Virus record (IMG/VR): IMGVR_UViG_3300034407_002444
Coordinates: 1-28,558 of that record
Length of the DNA stretch: 28,558 nucleotides
Reading direction: 5' to 3' (one strand)
DNA from: a virus
Shown: positions 5,487 to 27,561 of the stretch, in pieces
Layout: every line of letters begins with the position of its first letter
Numbering within the stretch: position 1 is the first letter of the stretch
Program-made: the position numbers and the translations under genes
Notes under the pieces: generated by a model
Seen by the model: only the letters and a program-made list of their open reading frames with translations
Databases searched by the model: none
Told to the model about the DNA's origin: nothing

Positions 5487-8204
5487 ATGCTAATAAATAT
5501 GTCAAGCAATAAAATAACGATGGCCAGTACATTAACAATGTTACTGTGTTCCACAGCTATCGCTGATACTAGTTATATGCAAGCAGATAATGACGGTACA
5601 CTACAAAATCAATGGATTAAAACTGGTATCAATAAAGAATCTGGTACATTTGGTAGTGGCGACAGCCAAACTCCTGGTATATTGTTTGATCCCACAGGTA
5701 CAGGATCATTTGATAATAACTATGACTATCTAACACCCGGTGCACCATTCGATGGGCAAGCACTTATGGTGGACGGCGACAATTACAAAAATAATAACTG
5801 GTCAGTATATACAACTGATATAGTAGACTCTGATGGACTTTCAAATGAAACTGATAAGTTGGAATGGAGCGGTGATGTTGAACACGATGATTCCACGTGG
5901 AGTGTTAAAAATGTCTTTAAACTAGAAGATAATAAATCTTACATTGATGTTACAACAACTATAACTGCTGGGTCTGATGCAGAATCAGTGAGTTATGGAA
6001 AGTTTATTGATCCAGATTCACAGGGCACACCAGGAGATACAAGTGCAACTGAAAATGTACTAGGATACTCTGGTATTCCAGAAACTAACATAGTCATTAG
6101 TGAAGCAAATGTTTCAAAATATGCGCTAGGATTATACACAACAGATACTAACACAACAGCAGGTATCCAATCATGGACAACAAATGCAGATGCGTTTGAT
6201 GGTTCAAAATATGAAAATGCTGACGGTGAAGAGATTCCATATGGGACCGGCGATGATATAATTGGTATCAGTTGGAATTGGACTAATGTTGTCTTGGGCG
6301 ATATTCTTTCAGTAAATTATGCATACATTTTAGGCGAAACTATCTTTGATGCAATTGAAAATTCTGAGGGATCAGGCGGAGATGCAGATAATGATTGGGT
6401 GGTGGAAGATATTGGAACCGCAACTGAAGCAGCAATATCAGCACCTGAACGTGAAGCGGCAGCGGAGGAAGCAGCACGGGTAGCGGCAGCGGAAGAAGCA
6501 GCGCGTGTAGCGGCAGCAGAAGAGGAAGCAGCACGGGTAGCGGCAGCGGAAGAAGCAGCACGTGTAGCGGCAGCAGAAGAGGAAGCAGCACGGGTAGCGG
6601 CAGCGGAAGAAGCAGCACGTGTAGCGGCAGCAGAAGAGGCTGCGCGTGTAGCAGCGGCAGAAGAGGCCGCACGTGTAGCGGCAGCGGAAGAGGCAGCGCG
6701 TGTAGCGGCAGCGGAAGAGGCAGCGCGTGTAGCAGCGGCAGAAGAGGCAGCGCGGGTAGCGGCAGCGGAAGAGGCGGCACGTGTAGCATCGGAAGAGGAA
6801 GCCGCACGTATAGCAGCGGAGGAAGCAGCACGTGTAGCAGCGGCAGAAGAGGCGGCACGTGTAGCGGCTGCGGAAGAGGCGGCACGTGTAGCGGCTGCGG
6901 AAGAGGCGGCACGTGTAGCGGCAGCGGAGGAAGCAGCACGTGTAGCGGCAGCGGAAGAGGCGGCGCGGGTAGCGGCTGCAGAAGAGGCGGCGCGGGTAGC
7001 GGCTGCAGAAGAGGCCGCACGTGTAGCAGCGGCAGAAGTAGCCCGGGTAGCAGCGGCAGAAGTGGAAGAAGTGGCGGAAGAGGTAGTTGAGTTTGCAGTA
7101 ATGGATATAAGGGCGATGGGGTTTGGTATTATGCGAGTAATGGCTTTACCAGAACCTATTATCACAGATACATCCAATGAAACTATTTCATCAATAACTG
7201 AAACACAAAGCACTACGTTACCAGTACTAACATCAAATATCATAAAACATGATTCCACAGTTGATAATAACTTACAAACTATTTCCAAAGAAACTATTAC
7301 AGTAGTAACAACCCCAATGAATATCACAACAAATTCATTTGTTCGTACTACAGAAACATATGATGATGGTTCAGAGGTAGTAACAGACGGAGATACAACT
7401 ACCACAACAATCGTGCGAAATGATATTGTCAGAACATCTAGTGATATTGAATCGGTTGTTGGTAGAGTTGACCAGGTAGAACAATTGTTAGGCATTGACA
7501 TTCATAGAAATATGGATATTAATAATGGCATCACTTTTACAAAAACAGATCATGAGATGAATAATGGCTATAATGCAAATACGAATGTGTATAGCATTGG
7601 AATTGAAGATATTTCAAGTAATGATAATATGTTGATTGGCGTAGAGTATAATGAAGTTAATACCACTATGACAGGAAGTGATAGTAATGGTAGTATGAAA
7701 ACACACGCATATAAAATTGATATTGGTAAATCATTTGATAACAATGATGCAAAATTAACCACATCATTTAATCATACAACATCTGATATTTCATATTTTA
7801 GAACAGTTGGCGACTATGCAGCATCCGGCGAAACTACATCAATTGACAATTATGCAAGTTTTATGTTAGAAAAAGAAACTGGTAATGTTCGTCCGTTCTT
7901 TGGTTACACACTCGGACACAGGAAAACACAAGGTTATACCGAAATTGGTAATGCACTCGCAGTTCTAGATTATAAAACTAAGAGTGATGTATATAATTAT
8001 GCAACACTTGGTTTTAACATTGACTATGACGAAATCAAAGTAAGTGTACGTAAAGACTTTGATGAATATGATACTACTAGGATTGACTTGGATATTAATG
8101 AATCTATCAACGATAAATTAAATTTAATGGTAGGATTTAATCGAAATATATCAAACTATGATACAAGTAATTCGGTAACTGCTGGTGTATCATGGACTTT
8201 CTAA
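5487..8204 (+). CDS. Secreted autotransporter-like outer-membrane protein with long AEEAARVA repeat
   Basis: A 905-residue protein. Residues 1-26 look like a Sec signal peptide with cleavage after AIA26. About 27-310 is a Gly/Asn/Asp-rich beta-type region resembling bacterial surface-protein passengers. About 322-535 is a near-perfect array of roughly 22 nine-residue units (AAAEEAARV), predicted long helix or coiled coil similar in style to TolA domain II. About 640-905 has alternating amphipathic strands and ends in Phe (GVSWTF), as in autotransporter or outer-membrane beta-barrels. AAAGG seven bases before the ATG fixes the start; ATG 5499 is an alternative. It has its own sigma-70 promoter, suggesting early expression in the host. 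Surface exclusion or envelope modification is a guess; a virion fibre is less likely given the signal peptide. Confidence 0.8.
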   Translation: MLINMSSNKITMASTLTMLLCSTAIADTSYMQADNDGTLQNQWIKTGINKESGTFGSGDSQTPGILFDPTGTGSFDNNYDYLTPGAPFDGQALMVDGDNYKNNNWSVYTTDIVDSDGLSNETDKLEWSGDVEHDDSTWSVKNVFKLEDNKSYIDVTTTITAGSDAESVSYGKFIDPDSQGTPGDTSATENVLGYSGIPETNIVISEANVSKYALGLYTTDTNTTAGIQSWTTNADAFDGSKYENADGEEIPYGTGDDIIGISWNWTNVVLGDILSVNYAYILGETIFDAIENSEGSGGDADNDWVVEDIGTATEAAISAPEREAAAEEAARVAAAEEAARVAAAEEEAARVAAAEEAARVAAAEEEAARVAAAEEAARVAAAEEAARVAAAEEAARVAAAEEAARVAAAEEAARVAAAEEAARVAAAEEAARVASEEEAARIAAEEAARVAAAEEAARVAAAEEAARVAAAEEAARVAAAEEAARVAAAEEAARVAAAEEAARVAAAEEAARVAAAEVARVAAAEVEEVAEEVVEFAVMDIRAMGFGIMRVMALPEPIITDTSNETISSITETQSTTLPVLTSNIIKHDSTVDNNLQTISKETITVVTTPMNITTNSFVRTTETYDDGSEVVTDGDTTTTTIVRNDIVRTSSDIESVVGRVDQVEQLLGIDIHRNMDINNGITFTKTDHEMNNGYNANTNVYSIGIEDISSNDNMLIGVEYNEVNTTMTGSDSNGSMKTHAYKIDIGKSFDNNDAKLTTSFNHTTSDISYFRTVGDYAASGETTSIDNYASFMLEKETGNVRPFFGYTLGHRKTQGYTEIGNALAVLDYKTKSDVYNYATLGFNIDYDEIKVSVRKDFDEYDTTRIDLDINESINDKLNLMVGFNRNISNYDTSNSVTAGVSWTF
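6451..7090 (+). repeat. Tandem 27-bp coding repeat (about 22 copies)
   Basis: Units of about 27 bp encode AAAEEAARV inside the autotransporter-like gene. Copies differ mainly at synonymous positions (gcg/gca/gct, cgt/cgg, gaa/gag), and a few carry an extra Glu codon or are shortened. The block is much richer in G and C than the flanks, and the repeats create long meaningless open frames on the other strand. Confidence 0.95.
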
Positions 8205-9057: not shown

Positions 9058-10620
9058 ATGGTTAAAGATTTAGGCAAAAACAATATTAGTAGTGGATATG
9101 CAGTTTTCTTACCTGCTATCTCTAGCTTCTATGTTCGTAAAATTTCACAACATTATTGTGAAACAACAGATATGTTTCCACCCGAGCGTATACCGCAAGG
9201 GTTTGAACACGGACTAGAGGGCTTAAATATTTTTGACAAAGATAAAGGCTATGTGTATTATTCACATGGTCTTTATTCTGCTGGTCATGCTGAATTAGAT
9301 TTAGAAAAATCTAAAATTGAAGATGGTATGGTTGTTAACAGAGACCGAGATACAACAATTCTAGTAGGAGATTCTGGTGGGTATCAAATTGGTACAGGTG
9401 CTTGGAAACTTGACTGGACTACTTTCTATGACAAAGAAGGTGATTGGGCTGATACTAGGCACGGCATTATGCGTTGGCTAGAAGAATATTGTGATTACTC
9501 TATGACACTTGATGTTCCGGGATGGAGTTGCCTTCCACAATATCGTGAAAAGAATGGTATTAAAAACTGGGATGAATGTGTAGAAAAAACTATTTTTAAT
9601 CATGAATACTTTATTAATAATAGAATTCCAGGAAAGACAAAATTTCTGAATACGTTGCACGGAAGTAGTTGGGATACCAGTGAAAAGTGGTACCAACAAG
9701 TTAAACACTTCAATGATAAATCGGTATACGGCGATAGAGCCTTCGAAGGATTTGCTATGGCTGGTGACCACGCAGGTGATGCAGAACTACTATTACGCAG
9801 ATTAATTCGTTTACGCGATGACGGGCTTCTTGGGCAAGAAGACCAATCAGATGTTTGGATTCATACTCTTGGTATCAGTGTTCTCCCGTGGGGCGCAATG
9901 TTGACTGCAATTCAACGGCAACTACGAAAACATGTTAATTCAAATCTAACTATATCCTTTGATGCTGCGTCACCATATATTACAGCGGCAAAGGGATTAG
10001 CATATGATTATCCCGACTTGAATTCAAATGCGTGGAGTTATAAAACTAAGAAGTTAAACTGGCGCCAAGATATTACTGATGAAGCCCAGCCCTGGTTGTA
10101 TGAAGGGGAAATTGGTTCTAGACTGAATATGAGAGATATTAATTATATGCAGGCTGGAATGTTGAATCGTAATAAAAAAGAAGCAAAATCAAGTTGGGAT
10201 ACCCTTTCATATATTCTTATTCAAGCACATAATGCAGAATATCATATACGTGGTATGCAAGATGCAATTCGTAGATTCGACCATGAGTATGAAATGCTAA
10301 GGGACAAGATTGATATTAACACAATGAATTTGGGAAAAACAAATACACTATCAGATGTAGTTCCGGATAGAGTTTTATATTTTGCAAAGTTTGTTGAAGT
10401 ATTGTTTGACCCTAATACAAAAGATCCAATGAATATGCTTACTAATTATAAAGCATTCCTACGTAAGTGCGAAGGGTCGCGTGTTCAAAATATCTCAACT
10501 ACTCCAGACTTTATGGAGTTTGAAGAGGCTGGCGTCAAAACAGAAGAATATGTAGATGCTGTCAAAGGAAAGAAAAAAGAGTACGATACTCCGGTAGGGG
10601 TTACGGAACTATTCAGATAA
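9058..10620 (+). CDS. dpdA: DpdA-type 7-deazaguanine DNA transglycosylase
   Basis: A 520-residue protein of the tRNA-guanine transglycosylase superfamily. It shows DSGGYQ (105-110, substrate-binding Asp), LDVPGW (151-156), GFAMAG (231-236, counterpart of GGLAVG) and FDAASP (301-306), whose Asp302 matches the nucleophile in the FDCVxPTR motif of bacterial TGT. The C-terminal CxCxxC zinc site of tRNA-acting TGT is missing, and the protein is longer than the usual 370-380 residues. Both points fit DpdA, which exchanges guanine in DNA for a 7-deazaguanine such as preQ0. Genes for precursor synthesis (QueD-like, FolE, QueE) follow within 3 kb, supporting DNA rather than tRNA as target. It starts 5 bases after the clamp gene with a poor ribosome site, suggesting coupling. 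Confidence 0.85.
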   Translation: MVKDLGKNNISSGYAVFLPAISSFYVRKISQHYCETTDMFPPERIPQGFEHGLEGLNIFDKDKGYVYYSHGLYSAGHAELDLEKSKIEDGMVVNRDRDTTILVGDSGGYQIGTGAWKLDWTTFYDKEGDWADTRHGIMRWLEEYCDYSMTLDVPGWSCLPQYREKNGIKNWDECVEKTIFNHEYFINNRIPGKTKFLNTLHGSSWDTSEKWYQQVKHFNDKSVYGDRAFEGFAMAGDHAGDAELLLRRLIRLRDDGLLGQEDQSDVWIHTLGISVLPWGAMLTAIQRQLRKHVNSNLTISFDAASPYITAAKGLAYDYPDLNSNAWSYKTKKLNWRQDITDEAQPWLYEGEIGSRLNMRDINYMQAGMLNRNKKEAKSSWDTLSYILIQAHNAEYHIRGMQDAIRRFDHEYEMLRDKIDINTMNLGKTNTLSDVVPDRVLYFAKFVEVLFDPNTKDPMNMLTNYKAFLRKCEGSRVQNISTTPDFMEFEEAGVKTEEYVDAVKGKKKEYDTPVGVTELFR

Positions 10621-10631
10621 GGAGGATTATA

Positions 10632-10811
10632 ATGACACCCGAAAAGAAACAAGCAAGATTAGACGCATTGCGAATTAGGCATAGAAAACTTGACAGCCGT
10701 ATCATAGAAGAGTATAAATTACATATGGATGTTTCTCGACTGAAAGCAGAAAAACTTAAAATGAAACAAGAAATATATGAGTTAGAGCGGGAACTTGGAG
10801 ACAATGGGTAG
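10632..10811 (+). CDS. Small DUF465/YdcH-family coiled protein
   Basis: This 59-residue peptide has the pattern of the DUF465 (YdcH) family: an LRIRHRKLDSRI stretch near residues 13-24 and LKAEKLKMKQEI near 37-48, two helices expected to form a hairpin. Function of the family is unknown. AGGAGG ends about six bases before the ATG, a near-perfect ribosome site. The gene lies between dpdA and the QueD-like gene in one operon, overlapping a possible early start (10804) of the latter. Whether it contributes to DNA modification or is a bystander cannot be told. Confidence 0.75.
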   Translation: MTPEKKQARLDALRIRHRKLDSRIIEEYKLHMDVSRLKAEKLKMKQEIYELERELGDNG

Positions 10812-10851
10812 TTACTATAATTATATGCTGGACGAAACAAGGAAAGTAAAC

Positions 10852-11256
10852 ATGACAGAACAACAGAAAAATCAAAAAGCAACAGCCAATCGTTGGATTT
10901 GGGTAACCTTCCAAAAAGAAGGCATCCATTGCTATCCAGCCGCGGCGGATGATCCCAATCTTGCAACTGGTGGATGGGATGATGTGTCATTCTTAGGAGT
11001 TCCACACCGTCATATCTTCCATTTTCGTGTAGCAATAAAAGTAACACACAACGATAGAGATATTGAATTTATTCAATTCAAACGTTGGCTTGAAAGACTA
11101 TATAGCCTAGAAGTACTTTCACTAGATTATAAATCTTGTGAAATGATGGCAGATGATTTATTCGATAATATTTCCGAAAAATATCCAGAACGAGATGTAA
11201 AAATTGAAATCTCTGAAGATGGTGAAAACGGAGCATTGATTGAATACAACATCTAA
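10852..11256 (+). CDS. Divergent QueD-like (6-carboxytetrahydropterin synthase / T-fold) protein
   Basis: A 134-residue protein with the layout of QueD/PTPS T-fold enzymes, which turn dihydroneopterin triphosphate into 6-carboxytetrahydropterin. It has His26, then HRH (52-54) followed by alternating hydrophobics and DIEFIQFK (70-77), like HGHxYxVxV...GMVxDFxxLK of QueD. SCEMMADDL (95-103) mirrors the TSENLA substrate-binding Glu segment, and the C-terminal VKIEISED...IEY mirrors VxVxET...Y. The usual Cys just before HxH is absent (Cys27 is next to His26), so catalysis may differ. AAGGA eight bases upstream favours ATG 10852; ATG 10804 would add 16 residues. Lying between DpdA and FolE/QueE supports the role. 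Family assignment is inferred from motifs. Confidence 0.6.
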   Translation: MTEQQKNQKATANRWIWVTFQKEGIHCYPAAADDPNLATGGWDDVSFLGVPHRHIFHFRVAIKVTHNDRDIEFIQFKRWLERLYSLEVLSLDYKSCEMMADDLFDNISEKYPERDVKIEISEDGENGALIEYNI

Positions 11257-11262
11257 ACGAAT

Positions 11263-11286
11263 TCCATTACCAAATTTGGTAATGGA
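11263..11286 (+). repeat. Perfect 24-bp palindrome between the QueD-like and glycosyltransferase genes
   Basis: The half-site TCCATTACCAAA is followed directly by its exact reverse complement. No T-run follows, so it is not a standard terminator. It could be an operator for a dimeric regulator or an RNA processing/stability hairpin in the 94-base gap. Confidence 0.8.
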
Positions 11287-11350
11287 TAGTGGTATCTGGT
11301 TTGGATACTAGTACTAGAATATCTGAACATTCATTAAAAGGGCAAAAAGA

Positions 11351-12421
11351 ATGTTATATCTTATAGATTTGGAGAGTGTCGAAACACGCTACACTAAGCA
11401 GTGGAAAACACATCTTCCCACTTTGTTACGAAGCAACAGCATTGATGTTACTGTGATTGAAGGTCCAACTGATATCCCGGCAGCAACTACGCCTGGTGCA
11501 TTTCTTAACTTTGGTGGTACAAATATCTATAAGAGCGCACAGTTAGAACAAATAGCGAAATTGTTCTGTGATGGTAAAATCCGCGATGGTGATTACTTTC
11601 TTTATACCGATGCGTGGAATCCCACTGTTATCCAGTTGAAATATATGGCAGAATTACTTGGGATAAAAATCCGTATAGGTGGCTTATGGCATGCTGGAAG
11701 CTATGATCCCCAAGATTTTCTAGGTCGCTTAATTGGTGATGCCTCATGGGTTCGAAAAGCAGAAATGTCAATGTACGATTGTTACAATGATAACTTTTTT
11801 GCTACTCGCTTTCATATTGATCTCTTTACAAATACGTTTTGGGATAATGATCGTGACATCGACAGGCAACTACTTCACTCTATTAGACAAGTGGGTTGGC
11901 CGATGGAGTATATCGAAACTGATCTTGGTGCATATAAAAATAATAAAGCGAAAGAGGACATAATACTATTCCCACATCGTATCGCACCAGAGAAACAGCC
12001 AGAGGTTTTTGATTATATTGCTGAACAAATGCCCGAATATAAGTTCATCAAATGTCAGGAACTTGAATTGTCCAAACCAGATTACCACGACTTACTAAGC
12101 AGATCAAAGATGGTATTCAGTGCTAACTTACAAGAAACATTGGGTATATCAATGTACGAAGGCATTGTGGTTGGCAGTGTACCAATGGTACCCGACAGAT
12201 TATCATACAGTGAAATGTGGAGTGACCAATTTAAGTATCCAAGCGAATGGACAACTTCTTTAGATTCAACAAAAAAGAATATAGAAAATATCAAAGCATA
12301 TATTCATAAACAAATGAAGATGAACACTGATATTCAACCTATACTGGTAGAAGAAAGTAATAGAGTTAAAAGTTTTTATTCCGGAGATGACATGATAATT
12401 TACCTAAATAATAATACTTGA
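11351..12421 (+). CDS. GT-B-like glycosyltransferase in the deazaguanine cluster
   Basis: A 356-residue protein resembling GT-B glycosyltransferases, which move a sugar from an activated nucleotide donor. The C-terminal half shows the pattern of a GT4-like donor domain: ILFPHRIAPEKQPEVF (about 206-221), then SKMVFSANLQETLGISMYEG (about 253-272), equivalent to the E-x7-E donor-binding region, then GSVPMVPDRLSY. The N-terminal half contains a DAWNP segment and GGLWHAGSYDP. No membrane segment or signal peptide is seen, so it should act in the cytoplasm. It shares the operon with dpdA and the QueD-like gene and ends just before folE. DNA-base glycosylation is an attractive inference; glycosylation of a host or virion component is equally possible. 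Confidence 0.7.
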   Translation: MLYLIDLESVETRYTKQWKTHLPTLLRSNSIDVTVIEGPTDIPAATTPGAFLNFGGTNIYKSAQLEQIAKLFCDGKIRDGDYFLYTDAWNPTVIQLKYMAELLGIKIRIGGLWHAGSYDPQDFLGRLIGDASWVRKAEMSMYDCYNDNFFATRFHIDLFTNTFWDNDRDIDRQLLHSIRQVGWPMEYIETDLGAYKNNKAKEDIILFPHRIAPEKQPEVFDYIAEQMPEYKFIKCQELELSKPDYHDLLSRSKMVFSANLQETLGISMYEGIVVGSVPMVPDRLSYSEMWSDQFKYPSEWTTSLDSTKKNIENIKAYIHKQMKMNTDIQPILVEESNRVKSFYSGDDMIIYLNNNT

Positions 12422-12446
12422 CATAATGACGTATTTGTAGTAATAT
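12418..12446 (+). promoter_or_regulatory. Sigma-70 promoter for folE-queE
   Basis: TTGACA (12418-12423), a 17-bp spacer and TAATAT (12441-12446). A perfect TATAAT at 12444-12449 would need a 20-bp spacer. The -35 box contains the TGA stop of the glycosyltransferase gene. Confidence 0.75.
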
Positions 12447-12468
12447 AATATAGAAAGGAACATAGTAT

Positions 12469-13167
12469 ATGACAAAGACTTCCGACGAGATACGTAAACG
12501 AATTAATGCAGCAGGTGCTAGGTACTGGGCTGGAGATAATATTAGCCAATACATCAATGAAGGCGAAAAAGATAAACTAATCGATGAACTTACACTTAAA
12601 TTTGAGGATGTATTGGACAGTTTATTGATTGACAGACATACAGATCCCAACAGTATAGATACTGGTAGGCGTTTAGCAAAGATGTATGTACATGAACTTA
12701 TGTCGGGTCGCTATAACCCGGCGCCGCCTGCAACTGCATTCCCAAATGAACCTGATAACATTACAAATGAGCGGTATGAAGGTATGCTTGTAGTTCGAAG
12801 TGAACTAACAAGTGTATGCTCACACCATCATCAGCCTGTTAAAGGTGTAGCATATATTGGTATTATTGCAGCAGACACGTTAATTGGTCTAAGCAAATAT
12901 ACCCGTATTGCACAATGGTGTGCGCGGCGAGGAACACTTCAAGAGGAACTTGCTATGGATATAAACAGAGAAATTCGAAATGCTACTGGTTCAGGCGATG
13001 TTGGTGTTTATATTCAAGCAACACATGGATGCTGTGAGAACCGTGGTATTATGGCACATAGTTCACTCACACAAACTACAGTACTTAAAGGATCATTCTT
13101 TAATAATCCGCACGTTAAACAAGAATTTATGGATAACATTAAACTACAACAGGAGTTTAGTTGCTAA
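12469..13167 (+). CDS. folE: GTP cyclohydrolase I
   Basis: FolE opens GTP to dihydroneopterin triphosphate, the first step of 7-deazaguanine (and folate) synthesis. The 232-residue protein has SVCSHHHQPVKG (115-126), including zinc ligands Cys117 and His120, then IGLSKYTRIAQWCARR (about 145-160) and HGCCENRG (186-193) with the third zinc Cys188. The usual CEHH Glu is Ser118 here. Length fits bacterial FolE (about 220). A Shine-Dalgarno AAAGGA lies about 10 bases upstream and the gene has its own promoter. Its stop overlaps the queE start (TAATG), so the two are translationally coupled, pointing to deazaguanine rather than folate supply. Confidence 0.95.
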   Translation: MTKTSDEIRKRINAAGARYWAGDNISQYINEGEKDKLIDELTLKFEDVLDSLLIDRHTDPNSIDTGRRLAKMYVHELMSGRYNPAPPATAFPNEPDNITNERYEGMLVVRSELTSVCSHHHQPVKGVAYIGIIAADTLIGLSKYTRIAQWCARRGTLQEELAMDINREIRNATGSGDVGVYIQATHGCCENRGIMAHSSLTQTTVLKGSFFNNPHVKQEFMDNIKLQQEFSC

Positions 13168-14039
13168 TGAAACTAAGATATTCAGAAGCGTTTTATAGCG
13201 TACAAGGTGAAGGCAAGTTTGTAGGAGTGCCTAGTGTATTTCTACGCACATTTGGATGTAACTTTCGCTGTCAAAACTTCGGACTAAATAAAGATAGAGA
13301 AAAGACTCGTTACAATCCAGAAGTTGAACAACTTATCAAAGATGGGGTACATGAAAAAGTAGAAAAGTTTGAGGACTTGCCTATTATACATACTGGATGC
13401 GATACATATGCCAGTATATATCCAGAATTTAAACACCTTGTATTTGATAAAACGATTGATGAAGTTGTAGAACATTTATTGTCATTGACGCCGGAAGGCA
13501 AATGGACACAAGATAATGGACAGGATATTCATCTAATTTTAACAGGTGGCGAACCTTTACTTGCTTGGCAAAAATTATATGTAGAATTATTTCAACACCC
13601 ACGTATGCAGGATTTAAAAAATGTCACTTTCGAAACCAACACTACGCAGCATCTATACGATGAACTATTCAACTATTTCAACTATAATGATAGACTTCAA
13701 GTCACTTTTAGTTGTTCACCAAAACTATCCGTTTCGGGCGAGTCTTGGGATGACGCTATTAAGCCTAATATTGCTTGCGAATATAACATTTTGGATGATA
13801 GTGACGTTTACCTTAAGTTTGTTGTTGCTGATAGAAGCGATGTTGATGAAGTTACTAGGGCTGTTCAGCAATACCGGGATGCCGGGCTGGAATGTCCAGT
13901 ATATCTTATGCCAATGGGCGGACGCAGTGAGGAATATTCCCTCAACGTACAAGAAGTGGCGGAACTCTGCATGGAAAGAGGATGGAGATTTACACCCAGA
14001 CTCCACATTTCTTTATTCGGAAATGCCTGGGGGACTTGA
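13167..14039 (+). CDS. queE: 7-carboxy-7-deazaguanine synthase (radical SAM), insertion in the cluster motif
   Basis: QueE contracts the ring of 6-carboxytetrahydropterin to 7-carboxy-7-deazaguanine using a [4Fe-4S] cluster and SAM. The 290-residue protein begins with SEAFYSVQGEGKFVGVPS (6-23), the family signature, and ends RLHISLFGNAWGT, also typical. LTGGEPLL is present mid-protein. The cluster motif is unusual: Cys31-x3-Cys35, then Phe38 where the third Cys should be, with a CDTYAS motif only at Cys78, implying an insertion of about 40 residues. I recall similar displaced forms in other phage QueE proteins. ATG 13167 overlaps the folE stop by one base and is preferred over TTG 13161; AGGAG lies upstream. 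Confidence 0.92.
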   Translation: MKLRYSEAFYSVQGEGKFVGVPSVFLRTFGCNFRCQNFGLNKDREKTRYNPEVEQLIKDGVHEKVEKFEDLPIIHTGCDTYASIYPEFKHLVFDKTIDEVVEHLLSLTPEGKWTQDNGQDIHLILTGGEPLLAWQKLYVELFQHPRMQDLKNVTFETNTTQHLYDELFNYFNYNDRLQVTFSCSPKLSVSGESWDDAIKPNIACEYNILDDSDVYLKFVVADRSDVDEVTRAVQQYRDAGLECPVYLMPMGGRSEEYSLNVQEVAELCMERGWRFTPRLHISLFGNAWGT

Positions 14040-14109
14040 AGAAGTTGCAAAATATAATAGTGGTATTGTGTCGGAAGAGCAACTTGAGAATATTAGGAAA
14101 AAATTATGA
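14023..14109 (+). CDS. Possible 28-residue micro-gene linking queE to the next gene
   Basis: A short frame starting ATG-CCT-GGG overlaps the end of queE in another frame and ends with an ATGA overlap with the next start. It would encode an acidic/basic helical peptide ending in EEQLENIRKKL. The ribosome site is weak. It could instead be untranslated spacer, since queE itself has a normal C-terminus and shows no frameshift. Confidence 0.3.
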   Translation: MPGGLEEVAKYNSGIVSEEQLENIRKKL

Positions 14110-14816: not shown

Positions 14817-15818
14817 ATGGCTACTTTCATTCTCGTTGACAGTCTTAATATGTATCATCGTGCAAAGCATGTAACACATCGCGGTGCTGATATAGATACT
14901 AAAATTGGTATGTCCTTTCACATTATGATGTCAAGTGTAAAGATGTGTTATAATATGTTTAACGCAGACCATGCAGTGTTTTGTTTAGAAGGGCGTAGTT
15001 GGCGTAAAGACTTCTATACCCCCTATAAGGCGCAGCGTAGGGTCGCCCAACAAGCAAAGAGTGAGCGGGAGCAAGAAGAAGACGCTATTATGTTTGGTGC
15101 GTATGATAGTATGATTAAGTTCCTAGATGAACGTACTAATTGCACATTGTTGCAGAACCCAGAAGCAGAAGCAGATGACATGATTGCTCTGTTCATTGAA
15201 TCACATCCCAATGATCATCACGTTATTATCAGTAGCGATAGTGATTATCAACAGTTAATATGTGACAATGTAACTATATACGATGGTGTACAAAATCGTA
15301 TCATCACACCAGATGGCTTTTTTAAGGATGATAAGAAACGCACTCCCATCAAAGATAAGAAGACTAAAGAGGTACTACCAGCACCTGATCCCGAATGGTT
15401 ACTGTTTGAGAAATGTATTCGCGGTGATACAAGTGATAATATCTTTAGTGCGTATCCTGGTTGTCGTAAGAAAGGCACTAAGAATAAAATTGGTATGATT
15501 GAAGCATATGAAGATCGTAATACAGGCGGTTTTAATTGGAATAACTTTATGTTACAGCGTTGGACAGATCATAATGGTGAAGAACATACCGTTCGTGATA
15601 TGTATGAGCGTAATAAAAAGTTAATTGATCTTACTGCACAGCCACACGATCTTAAAGTAAAGTTTATTGAAACTATTGCTGAACGTAGTATACCAAAGAC
15701 AAAAGCAGGCGTGGGTATTAATTTCTTACGCTGGTGTGGCGAATGGGACTTACAAAATCTAGCAAAAGCGCCTGACGAGATGGCTGCAATTCTTAATAAA
15801 GCATACCCACATGATTAA
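14817..15818 (+). CDS. 5'-3' exonuclease / flap endonuclease (T4 RNase H-like)
   Basis: A 333-residue nuclease of the FEN/5'-exonuclease superfamily, expected to remove RNA primers and flaps from Okazaki fragments. Metal-binding acidic motifs are in order: VDSLNMY (Asp8), EADDM (118-122), SSDSD (139-143) and RGDTSDN (202-208), which precedes the usual helix-hairpin-helix region. The length is close to T4 RNase H (305 residues). AGAGGT precedes the ATG, and the gene has its own promoter. The HAD gene start overlaps its stop by 8 bases. It likely acts with the polymerase and clamp encoded earlier. Confidence 0.9.
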   Translation: MATFILVDSLNMYHRAKHVTHRGADIDTKIGMSFHIMMSSVKMCYNMFNADHAVFCLEGRSWRKDFYTPYKAQRRVAQQAKSEREQEEDAIMFGAYDSMIKFLDERTNCTLLQNPEAEADDMIALFIESHPNDHHVIISSDSDYQQLICDNVTIYDGVQNRIITPDGFFKDDKKRTPIKDKKTKEVLPAPDPEWLLFEKCIRGDTSDNIFSAYPGCRKKGTKNKIGMIEAYEDRNTGGFNWNNFMLQRWTDHNGEEHTVRDMYERNKKLIDLTAQPHDLKVKFIETIAERSIPKTKAGVGINFLRWCGEWDLQNLAKAPDEMAAILNKAYPHD

Positions 15819-16527
15819 ATATATTTTTGATGTAGATGGTACACTGACTCCAAGTAGAGACAGAATTAATCCTTCTTTTCTAAAATTTATGTTGAAGTTT
15901 TCAAAGTCTAATTCAGTATACTTGGCAACAGGCAGTGATGCGCCAAAGACTATTGAACAAGTTGGTGATATGCTATTCAACAGTGTAGCACGTTCTTATA
16001 ACTGTAATGGAAACTCTGTATGGGAGAAAGGGGTTAACGTACATAACAACCCTTGGAAGATACAAGTTCCAGCACACCAAACATTGAGATACTGGTTAGA
16101 GAATACACAGTTTCCGCATCTTACTGGTACTCATATTGAAGAACGTCCAGGTATGGTTAATTTCTCAATTGTAGGGCGAGGCGCCAATGCTGAACAACGT
16201 GCAGAATATGTAAAATGGGATAAGCAATACAATGAACGTGATAACATGGCATTGTATATTAATTATAATGATGATGAATTTGAAGGTATAACTGCTACCG
16301 TAGGAGGTGAAACTGGAATCGATATTGCTCCTACTGGTTCAGATAAAAGCCAAATACTCAAAGATTTTACAAAGACTGACACACTGATATTCTTCGGTGA
16401 TGCTATTTTTGATGGTGGCAATGATTACACAATAGCACAAGCAATTAAGAAAAAAGGTGTAGGTAGAACCCATAAAGTATCTGGATGGGAAGAAACATAC
16501 AAAATATTAACAGATGTATACAGTTGA
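15811..16527 (+). CDS. HAD hydrolase of the phosphomannomutase (PMM) type
   Basis: A 238-residue HAD-superfamily protein with the catalytic DVDGT (Asp7 and Asp9), LATGS (motif II) and a C-terminal DKSQIL...IFFGDAIFDGGNDY block. That last block closely resembles the FFGDKTxPGGNDxEI motif of eukaryote-type phosphomannomutases, which interconvert mannose-6-P and mannose-1-P. Size matches PMM (about 245). It could feed a nucleotide-sugar for the glycosyltransferase at 11351, or simply be a sugar phosphatase, the common activity in this subfamily. It overlaps the exonuclease stop by 8 bases and is itself overlapped by the next gene. Confidence 0.8.
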   Translation: MIKYIFDVDGTLTPSRDRINPSFLKFMLKFSKSNSVYLATGSDAPKTIEQVGDMLFNSVARSYNCNGNSVWEKGVNVHNNPWKIQVPAHQTLRYWLENTQFPHLTGTHIEERPGMVNFSIVGRGANAEQRAEYVKWDKQYNERDNMALYINYNDDEFEGITATVGGETGIDIAPTGSDKSQILKDFTKTDTLIFFGDAIFDGGNDYTIAQAIKKKGVGRTHKVSGWEETYKILTDVYS

Positions 16528-18406: not shown

Positions 18407-19444
18407 ATGCTAAAGAGTTTCTTTTGGACTCCAGCAGAATTTTTATATGCTTGGCTAATGCTTGCTTGGCTTTTATTTGTTGGCTGGTACAATGTTCAGA
18501 TACTAGTTTATTATAATGCGTGGAACAGAGAGTTCTACGATGCAATACAAACACTACAGGAAGCAAGATTTTGGGAATTATTCTGGAGTTTTAATCCAGT
18601 TAGATTATGGGAATTTATTTCATTTCGTATGGATGAAACGACTACCGTTCCAAGTTTCTTAGAAATATTACTTATATATGTTCCAATGGCAACATATGCT
18701 ACATGGCAAACGCAACGCTTTACTTTTCGATGGAGAGAAGCAAATACAAAATATTACTTAACCCGTTGGGAAAGTTCTACAGCAAAAATTGAAGGTGGTT
18801 CACAGCGTATCCAAGAAGATTTAATGATCTTTGGTAAAACATTACAGTCACTATTTACTGGTTTCGTCAACAAGATTTTCATTCTTGCTGCTTTCTTACC
18901 AGTACTGTGGACACTCAGTGAAGGTCTTCCTGTATGGAATGGACAAATAATTCCTGGATTCCTAGTATGGGCAGCATTAATAATGAGTATTGGCGGAACG
19001 CTACTATCATTCTTGCTGGGTATTAAATTACCTGGTTTGGAATATAAAAATCAAGTTGTTGAGGCAAAGTTTCGTAAAAAACTTGTACACAGTGAAGATG
19101 ATTTCAATGAGCGTTTAACTGCCGATCTGTTTCCAATGTTTGCATCAATTAAACGCAATTACTATCGTCTGTTTAATTACTATATGGGATTTGGTATTTG
19201 GCAAACAGGCTTCTCACTACTAGCAGGAAATGTTGCTATTGTAGTATTAGCGCCAAGTTACTTTGCACAATTAATTACATTCGGTGTTCTAATTCAAGTA
19301 CTTAATGCGTTTGGTAGAGTAGAAGGTGCATTGACATTCTTTATCGATAGATGGACAACAATTGTTGACTTCCAATCTGTTATTAAACGACTTCGTGAAT
19401 TCAATAAAGTATTAGATGAAGCAGAAAATAACGCTACGTCATAA
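18407..19444 (+). CDS. SbmA/BacA-family peptide transporter homologue
   Basis: A 345-residue inner-membrane protein of the SbmA/BacA family, proton-driven importers of peptides such as microcin B17, bleomycin and proline-rich antimicrobial peptides. Visible hallmarks are the N-terminal WYNVQI..YYNAWNREFYDAIQ segment (about 27-45), WRxxxTKYYLTRW (about 104-116), a GGSQRIQED stretch and the C-terminal FGRVEGALTFFIDRW (about 305-319). About five or six hydrophobic helices are seen. It is shorter than E. coli SbmA (406 residues) and has no ATPase domain. AGGAGG precedes the ATG. It is co-transcribed with the protease gene and followed by a terminator. Use by a phage is unusual; peptide uptake or altering envelope permeability are inferences. 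Confidence 0.85.
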   Translation: MLKSFFWTPAEFLYAWLMLAWLLFVGWYNVQILVYYNAWNREFYDAIQTLQEARFWELFWSFNPVRLWEFISFRMDETTTVPSFLEILLIYVPMATYATWQTQRFTFRWREANTKYYLTRWESSTAKIEGGSQRIQEDLMIFGKTLQSLFTGFVNKIFILAAFLPVLWTLSEGLPVWNGQIIPGFLVWAALIMSIGGTLLSFLLGIKLPGLEYKNQVVEAKFRKKLVHSEDDFNERLTADLFPMFASIKRNYYRLFNYYMGFGIWQTGFSLLAGNVAIVVLAPSYFAQLITFGVLIQVLNAFGRVEGALTFFIDRWTTIVDFQSVIKRLREFNKVLDEAENNATS

Positions 19445-20808: not shown

Positions 20809-21942
20809 ATGGCAATTGCAAATGTTTCAACCGCAGATTTAGATGTACGTTTAGTTCGCCCAAGTGATATACGCTACGAAATTAATTACGCTATGAATCG
20901 TAAGCGTCCGGTCTTTATTTGGGGTCCTCCGGGTATTGGCAAATCTGAGATTGTTGACTCAATCACACAAGATCGTTCAGGCTATATGATTGATATGCGT
21001 CTTGCTCTTATGGAACCCACTGACTTGCGTGGTATCCCAGTACCGAATATAGAAACAGGATTGATGGAATGGCTTCCGCCTGCTGATCTTCCTACTCAAG
21101 AACTTGCTGATCAATTCGAATGTATCACGTTATTTCTTGATGAAATGAATCAAGCACCTCAGTCTGTACAGGCTGCAGCGTATCAGTTGATTCTGAACCG
21201 CCGCTTGGGCAAATATCGTCTCCCAGATAATGTTAACATTGTAGCAGCCGGTAACCGCGAAAGTGATCGTGGTGTCGCATATCGTATGCCTACTGCACTT
21301 GCTAACCGATTTGTTCATCTTGAAATGACTACGGATTTCGAAGATTGGCAGACATGGGCTTTGCAAAACAATATAGATGCTGAGGTTGTAGGCTATGTTA
21401 CTGCAAACAAGATGGATCTAATGAACTTTGATCCTCGCACTGCATCACGTGCATTTGCTACTCCTCGTTCATGGACGTTTGTATCACAAATGCTTCCAAT
21501 GGAAGGTGAGCAAATTTCAGATAGTCGCTTGCACGATTTGATTGCAGGTACAATTGGCGATGGCATTGCTACTAAATTTATGGCTCACCGTGCAGTAGCA
21601 GGAAAACTTCCTAATCCAACAGATATCTTAAATGGTAAAGTTACTACATTAACACCAGAGGCACGTGAAATCTCTGCTATGTTCTCACTTACTGCTTCAC
21701 TTTGTTACGAACTCAAAGACTTCTTGGATCGTAATGGTAAGGAAAAAATGGACGAGTTATACAAAATGGCAGATAACTTTTTTAACTTTATGATGGATAA
21801 TTTCGAAACAGAAATGACCGTACTTGGTGGGCGTACTGCATTAAAAGTTTATAAATTGCCACTTGAACCTCGTAAAGTTCCTTGCATTGAAAAGTTTTTC
21901 AAAAAATATGGTAAACTAATCATTGATGCTCATAATAATTAA
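20809..21942 (+). CDS. MoxR-family AAA+ ATPase
   Basis: A 377-residue AAA+ ATPase with Walker A GPPGIGKS (39-46), Walker B LFLDE (108-112) and an AAGNRE sensor-1 segment (about 145-150). MoxR ATPases act as chaperones that assemble or activate partner proteins, typically with a von Willebrand A-domain protein encoded beside them. The next gene is exactly such a protein. The gene has its own promoter and terminator, so the two partners are transcribed separately though adjacent. The AGAAAGAGAA ribosome region is modest. The role in the phage cycle is unknown. Confidence 0.93.
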   Translation: MAIANVSTADLDVRLVRPSDIRYEINYAMNRKRPVFIWGPPGIGKSEIVDSITQDRSGYMIDMRLALMEPTDLRGIPVPNIETGLMEWLPPADLPTQELADQFECITLFLDEMNQAPQSVQAAAYQLILNRRLGKYRLPDNVNIVAAGNRESDRGVAYRMPTALANRFVHLEMTTDFEDWQTWALQNNIDAEVVGYVTANKMDLMNFDPRTASRAFATPRSWTFVSQMLPMEGEQISDSRLHDLIAGTIGDGIATKFMAHRAVAGKLPNPTDILNGKVTTLTPEAREISAMFSLTASLCYELKDFLDRNGKEKMDELYKMADNFFNFMMDNFETEMTVLGGRTALKVYKLPLEPRKVPCIEKFFKKYGKLIIDAHNN

Positions 21943-21954
21943 TTAATAAAAAAG

Positions 21955-21974
21955 GGCGCTTAGGCGCCTTTTTT
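21955..21974 (+). terminator. Rho-independent terminator after the MoxR-like gene
   Basis: GGCGC (55-59) pairs with GCGCC (64-68) over a 4-base loop, flanked by A-run and six T. The next promoter's -35 box begins two bases after the T-run. Confidence 0.85.
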
Positions 21975-21975
21975 C

Positions 21976-22004
21976 TTGACAATCTATATAGTAGATGTTA
22001 TATT
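21976..22004 (+). promoter_or_regulatory. Sigma-70 promoter for the VWA/metallopeptidase gene
   Basis: TTGACA (21976-21981), a 17-bp spacer and TATATT (21999-22004). Confidence 0.8.
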
Positions 22005-22034
22005 AATGTTGAAATAGATGAAAAGGTGTATCGT

Positions 22035-23369
22035 ATGCGAATCGAACCAGAAAAAATTACTACTGAAGACGATTTCAATTCAATATTTGATGATCTATTA
22101 AAAGAAAATGGCATTGAAGTTGATGAAAATTCAGACGAACCGGTAGTATTCGAATACACCGATAAAGAAGTCAAAGAAATGATTGTCTCTGGCCGTGTGC
22201 GCCTGTTGATTAAACATCCGTTCTTTGGCACACTCGCTACACGTTTAAAACTAGTGGAAGCAGAATGGTGCCCAACTGCTGCGGTAGATGGCAAGCACTT
22301 CTATTATAACTCAGATTTCTTCCGCACTATGACACCAGAAGAGATTGACTTTATTGTTGGACACGAAGTATTTCATTGTGTGTATGATCACTGCGGTATC
22401 GGTAGTCGGCTAATGGACTTTGCAGAAAATGAACGTGATGCAAAATTATGGAATATTGCTGCTGATTATAAAGTTAACCAGGCAACAGTAGAAGCAAAAA
22501 TTGGCACAATGCCAAAACAAGCCCTATATGACCGCAAGTATTATAAATCATATACAGAAGAAATCTATCGTGATCTATTGCAACAGCAAGAAAACGGCAA
22601 AGATTTTAGTGATACTGATACACTTGATGAACATATGTTCGGTGACGGTGATGGTAACGGTGATGGCAAAAATGATCCCACTGGTCGCAATGCGCCCATC
22701 AAAATCTCTAAAGAAGAAGCAAAAGAAATAAAAGATCAGATGAAACAGGCTGTGTTACAGGCTGCACAAGCATCCGGTGCTGGTAATCTACCCGGTGATA
22801 TCAAACGTATGATTAAAGATATGACTGAGCCCAAAATGGATTGGCGTGAGTTTATTAATCTAAGTATTCAAAGTTCACAAAAATCAGACTTTACATGGAT
22901 GCGTCAATCTCGCAAATCACGTAGTATGGGTATATATCTACCAGGTATGGACAATGAGGTTATGGTTGATGCTGCAATCGGTATTGATGTTTCCGGTTCT
23001 ATATCTAAAACAATGATACAAGATTTCTTAGGTGAAATCTATGGCATTATGCAACAGTTTCAGGACTTTCGTTTAAAAATCTGGACATTTGATACACAAG
23101 TATATGCTGAATCATTTAAAGAATTTACACCTATGAATGCAGAAGAATTAAAAGAGTATGAAATTATTGGCTGTGGTGGCACAGACTTTGCTTGTAACTG
23201 GAACTTCATGGATGAAAATCAAATCGAACCAGACAAGTTCATCATGTTTACCGATGGCATGCCATTTGGTTCGTGGGGGAATCCTGCATACTGTGATACA
23301 TTGTTTGTTATTCATGGGTCACAGCATATCATTCCACCATTCGGTGAATATACATATTACGAATCGTAA
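22035..23369 (+). CDS. VWA-domain protein with putative metallopeptidase domain
   Basis: A 444-residue protein of the DUF2201 type. The N-terminal domain has GHEVFHCVYDH with an HExxH zinc motif (His110, Glu111, His114). The middle is an Asp/Gly/Asn-rich linker (about 200-225) and a basic helical stretch. The C-terminal von Willebrand A-like domain has the MIDAS sequence DVSGS (318-322) and later CGGTDF with the Thr ligand and FTDG. It is the expected partner of the upstream MoxR ATPase. AAAAGG eight bases before ATG 22035 favours that start over the GTG at 22026. Whether the HExxH site is catalytic is unknown. Confidence 0.9.
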   Translation: MRIEPEKITTEDDFNSIFDDLLKENGIEVDENSDEPVVFEYTDKEVKEMIVSGRVRLLIKHPFFGTLATRLKLVEAEWCPTAAVDGKHFYYNSDFFRTMTPEEIDFIVGHEVFHCVYDHCGIGSRLMDFAENERDAKLWNIAADYKVNQATVEAKIGTMPKQALYDRKYYKSYTEEIYRDLLQQQENGKDFSDTDTLDEHMFGDGDGNGDGKNDPTGRNAPIKISKEEAKEIKDQMKQAVLQAAQASGAGNLPGDIKRMIKDMTEPKMDWREFINLSIQSSQKSDFTWMRQSRKSRSMGIYLPGMDNEVMVDAAIGIDVSGSISKTMIQDFLGEIYGIMQQFQDFRLKIWTFDTQVYAESFKEFTPMNAEELKEYEIIGCGGTDFACNWNFMDENQIEPDKFIMFTDGMPFGSWGNPAYCDTLFVIHGSQHIIPPFGEYTYYES

Positions 23370-26422: not shown

Positions 26423-26447
26423 AAAAGCACCGTAAGGTGCTTTTTTT
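26423..26447. terminator. Bidirectional terminator between thyA and the radical SAM genes
   Basis: AAAAGCACC pairs with GGTGCTTTT over a GTAA (GNRA-type) loop; seven T follow on the plus strand and a T-rich run on the minus strand. It separates convergent operons, and its end overlaps the stop codon of the minus-strand gene. Confidence 0.9.
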
Positions 26448-27558
26448 ATATCTTTTGTTTAGGTATTTTACTATCAGCACTTGACACACAACTCTTACTG
26501 ATACATGGCATAGGCTTATCAAATAGTTTAAATCCACTTTCTATATATCCCAACGGTTGGTCAGCACAACTATATGAACGCTTAATACTACCATCAGGTT
26601 CTCTTATAATAATACCTTGATACCCACTGTTACAACTCCAGCCTTCAAAGTTATTAAAGTTAAATGCATTAAAACGTTCTGCCTGATCCATATACCATTT
26701 TTTGCCTTTTGAATCAGTAAACTCTACTTGCATATGCCACGGTACGCTTTTATCATTTTGACCAATTGCATACTCAGGTACATCAAAGTTTGCCTTTGGT
26801 CTATTTGACCACTTACGTTTCACTTCAGTATACGCAAGTTGAGGCATACCATTCCATAAACGCTCCATTTGTTCCTCAGTATACCCGTCAACTACTCGAC
26901 TTGCTGTTGGATCGGATTGTGGTTTTAAAGTTACATTGATTCCTTGTTCGTGGAAAAACAATGCATTATCCCAATCTCTGTCAAACCAGTCTGGAACCAT
27001 AACCATATTAACAGTTATTTGAACATCGTTTTCTTGACACAATACTAATTTGTCTGCGAATTCTTGCATTTTATCTCTAGTATTAAGATGTTCAGTATGT
27101 AAACTAGCAGTTGCACTTGCTCTATGAAATGGTTTTACTTTTTCTACATAGTTTTCGAACCATTTCATATTACGCGACATATTTGAAGTCATATGTACAG
27201 AGGTATAATTAGTGTTATCAACATCATCAGCCAAATGCTGCAAAATATCCAAGTATCCTGGATGAAAAGTAGGCTCACCGCCAGACAAAGAAAAATGGAA
27301 ACTATTAAAACTGTTATCACGTGCTTGCCTCTTAATTTCATCTATAGTTGCTAGGCATAGTTCGGTAGGTCTATGATCTTTTCTGTTGCTTCTGGCATAT
27401 GGCCAACAATAACTACAATTATAGTTACAGAACCTACCCAAAAGCCAACTAACAGTGAACAAGTCTCTATATAATAGAGTACGTTGTCCAACCTGTACGA
27501 TATCGTCAAATGGTATTTTTGTAAAGTCGTAATCAGACCATTTCAAATCTTCGCTCAT
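26446..27558 (-). CDS. Radical SAM protein with C-terminal cysteine cluster
   Basis: A 370-residue radical SAM enzyme. Cys44-x3-Cys48-x2-Cys51 binds the [4Fe-4S] cluster, SLSGGEPTFHPG (GGEP at 93-96) contacts SAM, and a VHMTSNMS stretch matches the later strand. The C-terminal third holds several Cys (WSCNSGYQG, YSCADQPLG, PMPCISKSC), suggesting SPASM-like auxiliary clusters, typical of peptide- or carbohydrate-modifying members. The start follows the upstream minus-strand gene by 3 bases with GAGGA in its end, so both form one operon. Substrate unknown; no obvious precursor peptide gene lies beside it in the window. Confidence 0.88.
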   Translation of the reverse strand: MSEDLKWSDYDFTKIPFDDIVQVGQRTLLYRDLFTVSWLLGRFCNYNCSYCWPYARSNRKDHRPTELCLATIDEIKRQARDNSFNSFHFSLSGGEPTFHPGYLDILQHLADDVDNTNYTSVHMTSNMSRNMKWFENYVEKVKPFHRASATASLHTEHLNTRDKMQEFADKLVLCQENDVQITVNMVMVPDWFDRDWDNALFFHEQGINVTLKPQSDPTASRVVDGYTEEQMERLWNGMPQLAYTEVKRKWSNRPKANFDVPEYAIGQNDKSVPWHMQVEFTDSKGKKWYMDQAERFNAFNFNNFEGWSCNSGYQGIIIREPDGSIKRSYSCADQPLGYIESGFKLFDKPMPCISKSCVSSADSKIPKQKI

Positions 27559-27561
27559 AAT

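Follow-up and report, generated by a model that had tools for sequence, protein, structure and literature searches.

Conserved association of a glycosyltransferase with phage 7-deazaguanine genes predicts a sugar-decorated deazaguanine in phage DNA

In the 28,558-base virus record IMGVR_UViG_3300034407_002444, analyzed over its whole length (the window) and representing a fragment of its genome only, a gene for a putative GT-B, GT4-like glycosyltransferase (GT) lies among genes for the synthesis of a 7-deazaguanine base and its predicted insertion into DNA. The association of this GT with deazaguanine genes is conserved and widespread, and a sugar-decorated deazaguanine in phage DNA is a well-founded prediction from it. 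If the prediction is true, two known armours of phage DNA, deazaguanine exchange and sugar decoration, would be joined in one base. The gene set is found in many uncultured viruses and in isolates, so the claim is directly testable; the isolates are PA5oct, Paride and its relatives, Phosso, Acidovorax phage ACP17, Xanthomonas phage X1, and Synechococcus phage BUCT-ZZ01.

An earlier note on this DNA had described a run of consecutive genes, and we confirmed that positions 9058 to 14039 hold six open reading frames in a row on the plus strand, for a transglycosylase, a 59-residue peptide, a small protein, the GT, FolE, and QueE. Newly noticed here are the pairing of the GT with the small protein, a QueD paralogue that we call QDL, the sugar-nucleotide genes near the GT in relatives, and a phosphomannomutase gene in the window.

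Linkage of the glycosyltransferase with deazaguanine genes

GT loci were collected in four scans of viral contigs, one giving the best 80 of 301 matches and the three others the best 80 each of at least about 600, and a further 19 loci came from a scan that covered bacteria and archaea. Together they hold 264 non-duplicate loci, where only loci with an identical 300-base GT core counted as duplicates; all were selected by patterns in the GT itself, and many are close relatives rather than independent cases. Gene content was counted in the 106 of the 264 loci with more than 8 kb on both sides of the GT (the full-flank set), and the 158 with shorter flanks were excluded. DpdA, FolE, QueE, or QueD was present in every one of the 106, with DpdA in 101, QDL in 104, FolE in 95, QueE in 81, canonical QueD in 22, and QueC in 1. 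The profiles behind these counts were iterated on the same loci, and among the 106 no DpdA match scored below 236 bits and no QDL match below 70. The first 80 loci, with duplicates left in and many contigs ending early, gave DpdA in 70, QDL in 75, FolE in 71, and QueE in 66. The near-constant co-occurrence of GT and DpdA supports the view of the earlier note that the cluster is one for deazaguanine, has a transglycosylase of the DNA type, and includes the GT as a member, and the search of relatives that it had proposed did not find the GT mainly away from dpdA. Among the five full-flank loci that lack DpdA, one has it elsewhere in its record (L175; E 3.5e-145) and another perhaps does (L173; 4.5e-8). 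QDL lies within 600 nt of the GT and on the same strand in 206/264 loci.

The association is also seen from the other side. A scan with an alignment of the window DpdA and the DpdAs from GT loci gave the best 80 of at least 587 matches, 72 of them non-duplicate; 54 of these loci hold the GT, all 18 without it end no more than 3.2 kb after dpdA, and both GT and QDL are present in all 25 loci with 6-kb flanks. Across 50,697 annotated phage records the GT matches 20, and 16 of these are 7-deazaguanine phages (five phages that were opened, a second ACP17 record, and ten PA5oct-like records judged by side-by-side GT and DpdA matches). The window DpdA matches 13 annotated phage records, 12 of which also hold the GT, the exception being Vibrio phage 2.275.O. 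Moreover, the GT co-occurs with two sequence-divergent types of DpdA, and in Phosso it stands together with FolE, QueE, and QDL although DpdA lies 170 kb away.

Some bacterial contigs carry compact GT-QDL-DpdA-QueD or GT-DpdA sets, among them contigs of Magnetospirillum (L333, L335, and L337-L339) and of Sulfitobacter and Shimia (L331, L332, and L340).

Proteins of the cluster and their likely roles

Sequence-family searches gave nothing usable for the putative transglycosylase (no match in Pfam or PHROGs at E 0.1 and nothing usable in PDB sequence searches), and its fold was settled by a structure model (pLDDT 87.9, built from 44 sequences). With Foldseek the model matched six PDB chains at E ≤ 0.001; each belongs to the TGT family, and they include 7ui4, the DpdA that inserts preQ0 into DNA. 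In a second look with VIA all 50 listed entries are TGTs (Z 19.3 to 17.9), the best aligning over 310 residues at 4.7 Å with Z 19.3. The protein has the motifs DSGGYQ (residue 105) and FDAASP (residue 301), and D105 and D302, which do not vary across 220 aligned sequences, are presumably the catalytic aspartate pair of TGTs. The proposed DpdA-type transglycosylase thus holds up: by its model, the product is a TGT-fold enzyme of DpdA type, which would insert its base into DNA. The second DpdA type, phrog_10773, is present in ACP17, X1, and BUCT-ZZ01 and is related to the window type by profile (hhalign probability 97%).

The sequence of the GT gave weak Pfam and PHROG family matches, and PDB sequence searches with the GT and with QDL were empty or weak. 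The GT model (pLDDT 93.8, built from 76 sequences) has GT-B/GT4 enzymes as its neighbours in both Foldseek and VIA, the best at Z 25.6 over 317 residues at 3.0 Å, and among them are sucrose-phosphate synthase, MshA, BshA, SenB, and tetrahydrobiopterin glucosyltransferases. The T4 DNA glucosyltransferases are not among the 50 listed VIA entries, and a missing entry excludes nothing. The window GT has the EX7E motif (E262-E270) and the basic donor-site residues (R210 and K215) of GT4/GT-B enzymes; R210, K215, and E270 are each found in more than 99% of 272 sequences. The N-terminal half carries a family signature, ExxExRYT (ESVETRYT at residue 8 in the window), and E8, R13, Y14, T15, Q64, D87, and D122 are each likewise present in more than 99% of the 272. 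The N-terminal half of GT-B enzymes is the usual site of the acceptor, and these nearly invariant residues therefore hint at an acceptor that is constant across the family. From its model, the product appears to be a GT-B, GT4-like glycosyltransferase, and the sugar would go to a deazaguanine. The four remaining GT matches among the annotated phages, of the PhiXhv type, were set aside as functional relatives and not counted, being distant and without ExxExRYT; in the one such locus opened (L008) the gene adjoins an aminotransferase and a deacetylase. In BUCT-ZZ01 a second, different glycosyltransferase-like gene lies in the cluster (L009:5001-6341; Glyco_trans_1_4 3.4e-5, under the cut-off), and a disaccharide could result.

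The small protein, which the earlier note had called QueD-like and taken for the QueD of the pathway, is a QueD paralogue that lacks the active site of QueD. Its likely start, the ATG at 10804, overlaps the stop of the preceding peptide gene, and its residues are numbered here from codon 10807. The positions conserved in 241 sequences are H41, H67, H69, the SCE at 110-112, and E137, and the zinc-type histidines H41, H67, and H69 together with E112, of the base-binding type, are kept in 99.6-100% of them; the equivalence with QueD was drawn from the order of the motifs and a weak profile match (probability 71%). In 22 canonical phage QueDs C28, D71, and H72 are invariant, and no counterpart of this catalytic Cys and Asp-His was found among the conserved positions of QDL. 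Because the catalytic residues are missing, QDL is not the QueD of the pathway. A canonical PTPS/QueD was found elsewhere in 12/14 GT-bearing records, and in ACP17 and BUCT-ZZ01 QDL and canonical QueD both lie beside the GT; none was found in the window, a fragment of its genome. Of the proposed set of FolE, QueD, and QueE, this run of genes therefore holds FolE and QueE and not QueD.

QDL is found more widely than the GT. Its family matches 27/50,697 phage records, 16 of which also match the GT and 11 of which do not. In Cellulophaga phage phiST it comes after QueD, QueE, and FolE, and no GT was found there by tblastn, run with two GT sequences as queries at E 0.01, a search that could miss a very distant GT in phages of this kind. 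Seven GT-less QDL regions were opened; FolE is annotated nearby in six, and in phage Roos a queuine-transferase-like gene adjoins QDL. QDL thus appears to be a marker of deazaguanine pathways that lack QueC, with the GT as an apparent addition that would depend on what QDL produces. In two phages QDL is fused to the C terminus of a further domain, endonuclease-like in Chryseobacterium phage MA9V-3 (L430:6524-7402) and of no known kind in Vibrio phage Bakedbeans (L427:6278-7426). A protein of about 180 residues without a clear family (cluster C5; L126:8763-9293 and relatives) usually has its gene immediately 5′ of QDL. It occurs in 219 loci, duplicates included, and in ACP17; it is absent from the window and is possibly a further member of the pathway.

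FolE and QueE are assigned from their Pfam and PHROG matches. The NCBIfam FolE models match the window FolE below their cut-offs, and five NCBIfam QueE models match QueE at 1e-13 to 1.7e-8, all under their cut-offs. QueE departs from the CX3CX2C motif, with C31 and C35 kept and the third cysteine displaced to C78, and all three are present in 144/145 sequences. One conserved neighbour cluster (C17) is a reading frame that overlaps QueE (13621-14109), and we took it for an artefact of QueE conservation. QueC was found neither in the window nor in 11/14 GT-bearing records; in the remaining three the match is partial and just over the cut-off (G006) or weak and under it (two records). A strong QueC match is present in the GT-less Vibrio phage 2.275.O, which also has a gene annotated as preQ0 reductase (QueF). 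QueC being usually absent, the pathway most likely ends at 7-carboxy-7-deazaguanine (CDG) or at a product that QDL forms from it. A xanthine phosphoribosyltransferase-like gene is found near many clusters (137/270 loci), and its enzyme might recycle the guanine released by DpdA. Near many clusters of the window type there is also an S-adenosylmethionine synthetase gene (L016:10495-11592 and relatives; Pfam 1e-56), which perhaps feeds the radical SAM enzyme QueE.

Genes for sugar supply accompany the GT in many relatives. A GalE-like epimerase (TIGR01179 1e-60, under the cut-off) is often the next gene after the GT, within 150 nt in 61 of the 237 loci that have downstream sequence, and in clusters of the PA5oct type an epimerase-like gene lies between the GT and QueE. 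Over the 264 loci an epimerase was found in 105, a UDP-glucose dehydrogenase-like gene in 54, and a Gfo/Idh/MocA-like oxidoreductase in 36, with at least one of the three in 150 (64/106 of the full-flank set). The window has a phosphomannomutase, which possibly feeds the sugar donor with glucose-1-phosphate or mannose-1-phosphate; homologues occur in 57/264 non-duplicate loci, and in 4/11 large records versus 1/14 control genomes. Taken together, the sugar genes suggest, without proving it, that the GT truly transfers a sugar and that this sugar varies.

A proposed pathway and competing explanations

Our results lead us to propose that these phages probably carry in their DNA a glycosylated 7-deazaguanine derived from CDG. 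FolE and QueE, together with a QueD from the host or from another part of the phage genome, would make CDG, which in the absence of QueC would not proceed to preQ0. QDL, with its zinc-type site, may alter or present CDG, DpdA would exchange guanine in the phage DNA for the modified base, and the GT would glycosylate this base from a nucleotide-sugar, either before its insertion or in DNA. The donor may be adjusted by the phage through the phosphomannomutase, the GalE-like epimerase, or the UDP-glucose dehydrogenase, the sugar probably depending on the lineage, and the likely purpose would be evasion of restriction and other nucleases. The computed basis of this proposal consists of the folds, the motifs, the gene linkage, and the usual absence of QueC, from which we infer the acceptor, the sugar, the order of the steps, and the presence of the base in virion DNA.

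Several observations weigh against this proposal. The side group of CDG has no hydroxyl, so the chemistry of the linkage is not evident, and some enzymes with a fold like that of the GT act on small molecules, the pterin glucosyltransferases being examples. Host QueC could make preQ0, and one of the 106 full-flank loci has a QueC match. No DpdA of either type was found in the 95-, 21-, and 48-kb records of three GT loci (L168, L170, and L172), QDL is missing from two full-flank loci (L279 and L340), and the DpdA-side scan is not independent, its query DpdAs having been taken from GT loci. On the side of the sugar, the epimerase, the dehydrogenase, and the oxidoreductase are missing from the window and from 42/106 loci, the gene for the phosphomannomutase is 1.8 kb past QueE and is found in just 25 of the 106, and a sugar-nucleotide pyrophosphorylase was not found in 10/11 large records, so the host would have to supply that step.

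Among the competing explanations, it is unlikely that the GT acts on a pterin or another soluble intermediate, as the cyanobacterial tetrahydrobiopterin glucosyltransferase (BGluT) does, and that the DNA carries a plain deazaguanine. FolE does produce a pterin precursor, and the fold search with the GT did list PsBGluT (9v0l; Z 21.1) and the BGluT of PCC 7942 (5zes; Z 21.0), but they rank 43rd and 46th, after many other GT4 enzymes, and this explanation leaves the presence of DpdA in 101/106 and QDL in 104/106 loci unaccounted for.

We also give little credence to the idea that the GT targets another DNA base, such as a hydroxymethylpyrimidine, or the host surface, and is a mere neighbour in a replication and modification block. 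That block does include a polymerase, a clamp, and a 5′-3′ exonuclease, and the window has a gene of the thymidylate synthase family; however, the GT stays with deazaguanine genes in unrelated gene orders, in bacterial contigs that lack the replication block, and in X1, BUCT-ZZ01, ACP17, and Phosso, in the last of which it keeps FolE, QueE, and QDL despite the distant DpdA. The close, same-strand position of QDL in most loci argues against a chance neighbourhood as well.

A different version of the chemistry, to which we assign a similarly small chance, is that the carboxyl group of CDG is activated or taken off by QDL and the GT puts the sugar on the freed C7 carbon, giving a C-linked glycosyl-7-deazaguanine in DNA with a sugar determined by the epimerase, dehydrogenase, or phosphomannomutase that each lineage has. 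It fits the data in that the GT is almost never found without QDL (104/106) while QDL occurs without the GT (11/27 records), and it leans on a predicted CDG decarboxylase: Cui and colleagues (2023) reportedly found phage DNA with carboxy- and unsubstituted deazaguanine and proposed such an enzyme, DpdL.

Finally, it is very improbable that the transglycosylase serves tRNA and that the GT helps to make a tRNA base with a sugar, like glycosylated queuosine. The fold of the window enzyme is no closer to DpdA than to tRNA TGTs, but its sequence is distant from the latter, with no Pfam TGT match at E 0.1, hhalign ties it to the phrog_10773 type of other phage deazaguanine clusters, and phages with tested DNA deazaguanine have TGT-fold DpdAs that are likewise far from tRNA TGTs, according to the parts of PMC6884629 covered here.

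Should the proposed glycosylation of a CDG-derived base in phage DNA be true, phrog_17812, a family of unknown function, would gain a role, and the GT would become a new candidate DNA or base glycosyltransferase.

Other features of the window and comparison with known systems

The closest counterparts of the window polymerase in the phage collection are those of Sinorhizobium phage Phosso, at 49% identity, and of Agrobacterium phage Atu_ph07, at 45%, and relatives of its GT that are 82% and 71% identical lie on contigs of about 342 kb. Coordinates of the features are collected in Table 1.

Table 1. Features of the deazaguanine cluster and its surroundings in the window
Feature	Position	Strand	Basis or remark
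DpdA-type guanine transglycosylase, 520 aa, TGT superfamily	9058..10620	+	Structure model, fold matches, motifs
DUF465-like peptide, 59 aa	10632..10811	+	Pfam DUF465 E 3.2e-4, 21.1 bits versus cut-off 25
QDL, small QueD paralogue (phrog_17812)	10804..11256	+	phrog_17812 8.7e-33, unknown function
Perfect 24-nt palindrome between QDL and GT	11263..11286	.	Not conserved
Putative GT, 356 aa, GT-B fold, GT4-like	11351..12421	+	Model, fold matches, motifs, linkage
Promoter-like TTGACA-17-TAATAT upstream of folE	12418..12446	+	Consensus match only
FolE, GTP cyclohydrolase I, 232 aa	12469..13167	+	Pfam GTP_cyclohydroI 1.8e-34; phrog_2197 5.6e-41
QueE-like radical SAM enzyme (7-carboxy-7-deazaguanine synthase-like)	13167..14039	+	phrog_2076 5.4e-55
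HAD-type phosphomannomutase	15811..16527	+	Pfam PMM 1.7e-26; PDB 5ue7 2.8e-30; DVDGT motif

The peptide between DpdA and QDL had been assigned to DUF465 in the earlier note; a Pfam match to that family exists but is weak and under the cut-off, and relatives of the peptide occur in 38 of the first 80 GT loci. The folE stop and the queE start, the ATG at 13167, overlap as TAATG. Two linked operons between 9058 and 14039 are possible, judging from the promoter-like site before folE; such sites are not enriched in the window, with 19 found against 21.4 expected from shuffles. The palindrome was considered as an operator or terminator and set aside, as its inner 22 nt are not conserved among 432 loci: there was no exact match in 431 of them, and the lone match is the window's own DNA (L001).

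Several other genes of the window drew our attention. A 905-residue protein (5487-8204) contains about 22 copies of a 27-nt repeat (6449-7038) that encode a stretch rich in Ala, Glu, and Arg; its ends resemble, by eye, a signal peptide and an outer-membrane barrel, and it has no Pfam or PHROG match. Positions 18407-19444 encode an SbmA/BacA-like transporter (Pfam 2.9e-79; a single PHROG match of unknown function), which is, to our knowledge, an unusual gene for a phage. An AAA ATPase is followed by a DUF2201 metallopeptidase/VWA-like protein (20809-23369), for which the PHROGs label HNH endonuclease looks wrong. Two adjoining genes for radical SAM proteins, of which one has a SPASM domain, lie on the minus strand (26446-28518), opposite to the other long genes of the window.

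For the known phage deazaguanine systems, the parts of Hutinet 2019 covered here (PMC6884629) describe two groups built around QueC, one of them with an amidotransferase in addition, and also phages that have only DpdA and others that have pathway genes and no DpdA. Phage Bipper, which lacks QueC alone, could according to the same parts carry the substrate of QueC; deoxyqueuosine was not found in the phages tested there, nor QueA, QueG, or QueH in phages. In that paper no word starts with "glyc", and "glucosyl" is used for phage T4 only. A 2025 study (PMC12028318) describes, in the parts covered, dPreQ1 in a vibrio phage with QueF, and in the covered parts of the Paride paper (PMC10761892) no word starts with "deaza". 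A glycosylated deazaguanine in phage DNA is not described in the covered parts of these three papers or of PMC12783734, PMC13329287, PMC12707154, PMC11990801, and PMC13390438; a 2023 paper in Nucleic Acids Research and a 2024 review lie outside the comparison. The clusters of the window type share FolE, QueE, and a TGT-fold transglycosylase with the modification systems of 9g, CAjan, and Rosebush, as well as a base that is made first and then inserted by DpdA, and differ from them, as these are presented in the covered parts of PMC6884629, in mostly lacking QueC and in having the GT and QDL.

The set of phiST (QueD-QueE-FolE-MazG-QDL, without QueC) is like the GT-bearing phages in its CDG genes and QDL, and differs in that no GT of the window family was found and in its smaller genome. 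Vertebrate tRNA contains glycosylated queuosine with its sugar on the cyclopentenediol; this too is a sugar on a 7-deazaguanine derivative, but one that is in tRNA and linked through the cyclopentenediol, and we know of no genes for that moiety in GT-bearing phages. BGluT (5zes and 9v0l) shares the GT-B fold with the window GT at Z 21 and about 12% identity, and its acceptor, tetrahydrobiopterin, is chemically near deazaguanine; we know of no linkage of BGluT with DpdA. The glucosyltransferases of the T-even phages decorate hydroxymethylcytosine in phage DNA. What the window GT may have in common with them is a GT-B fold and the attachment of sugar to the DNA of a phage; it would act on another base and appears to be another enzyme, its listed relatives being GT4 enzymes.

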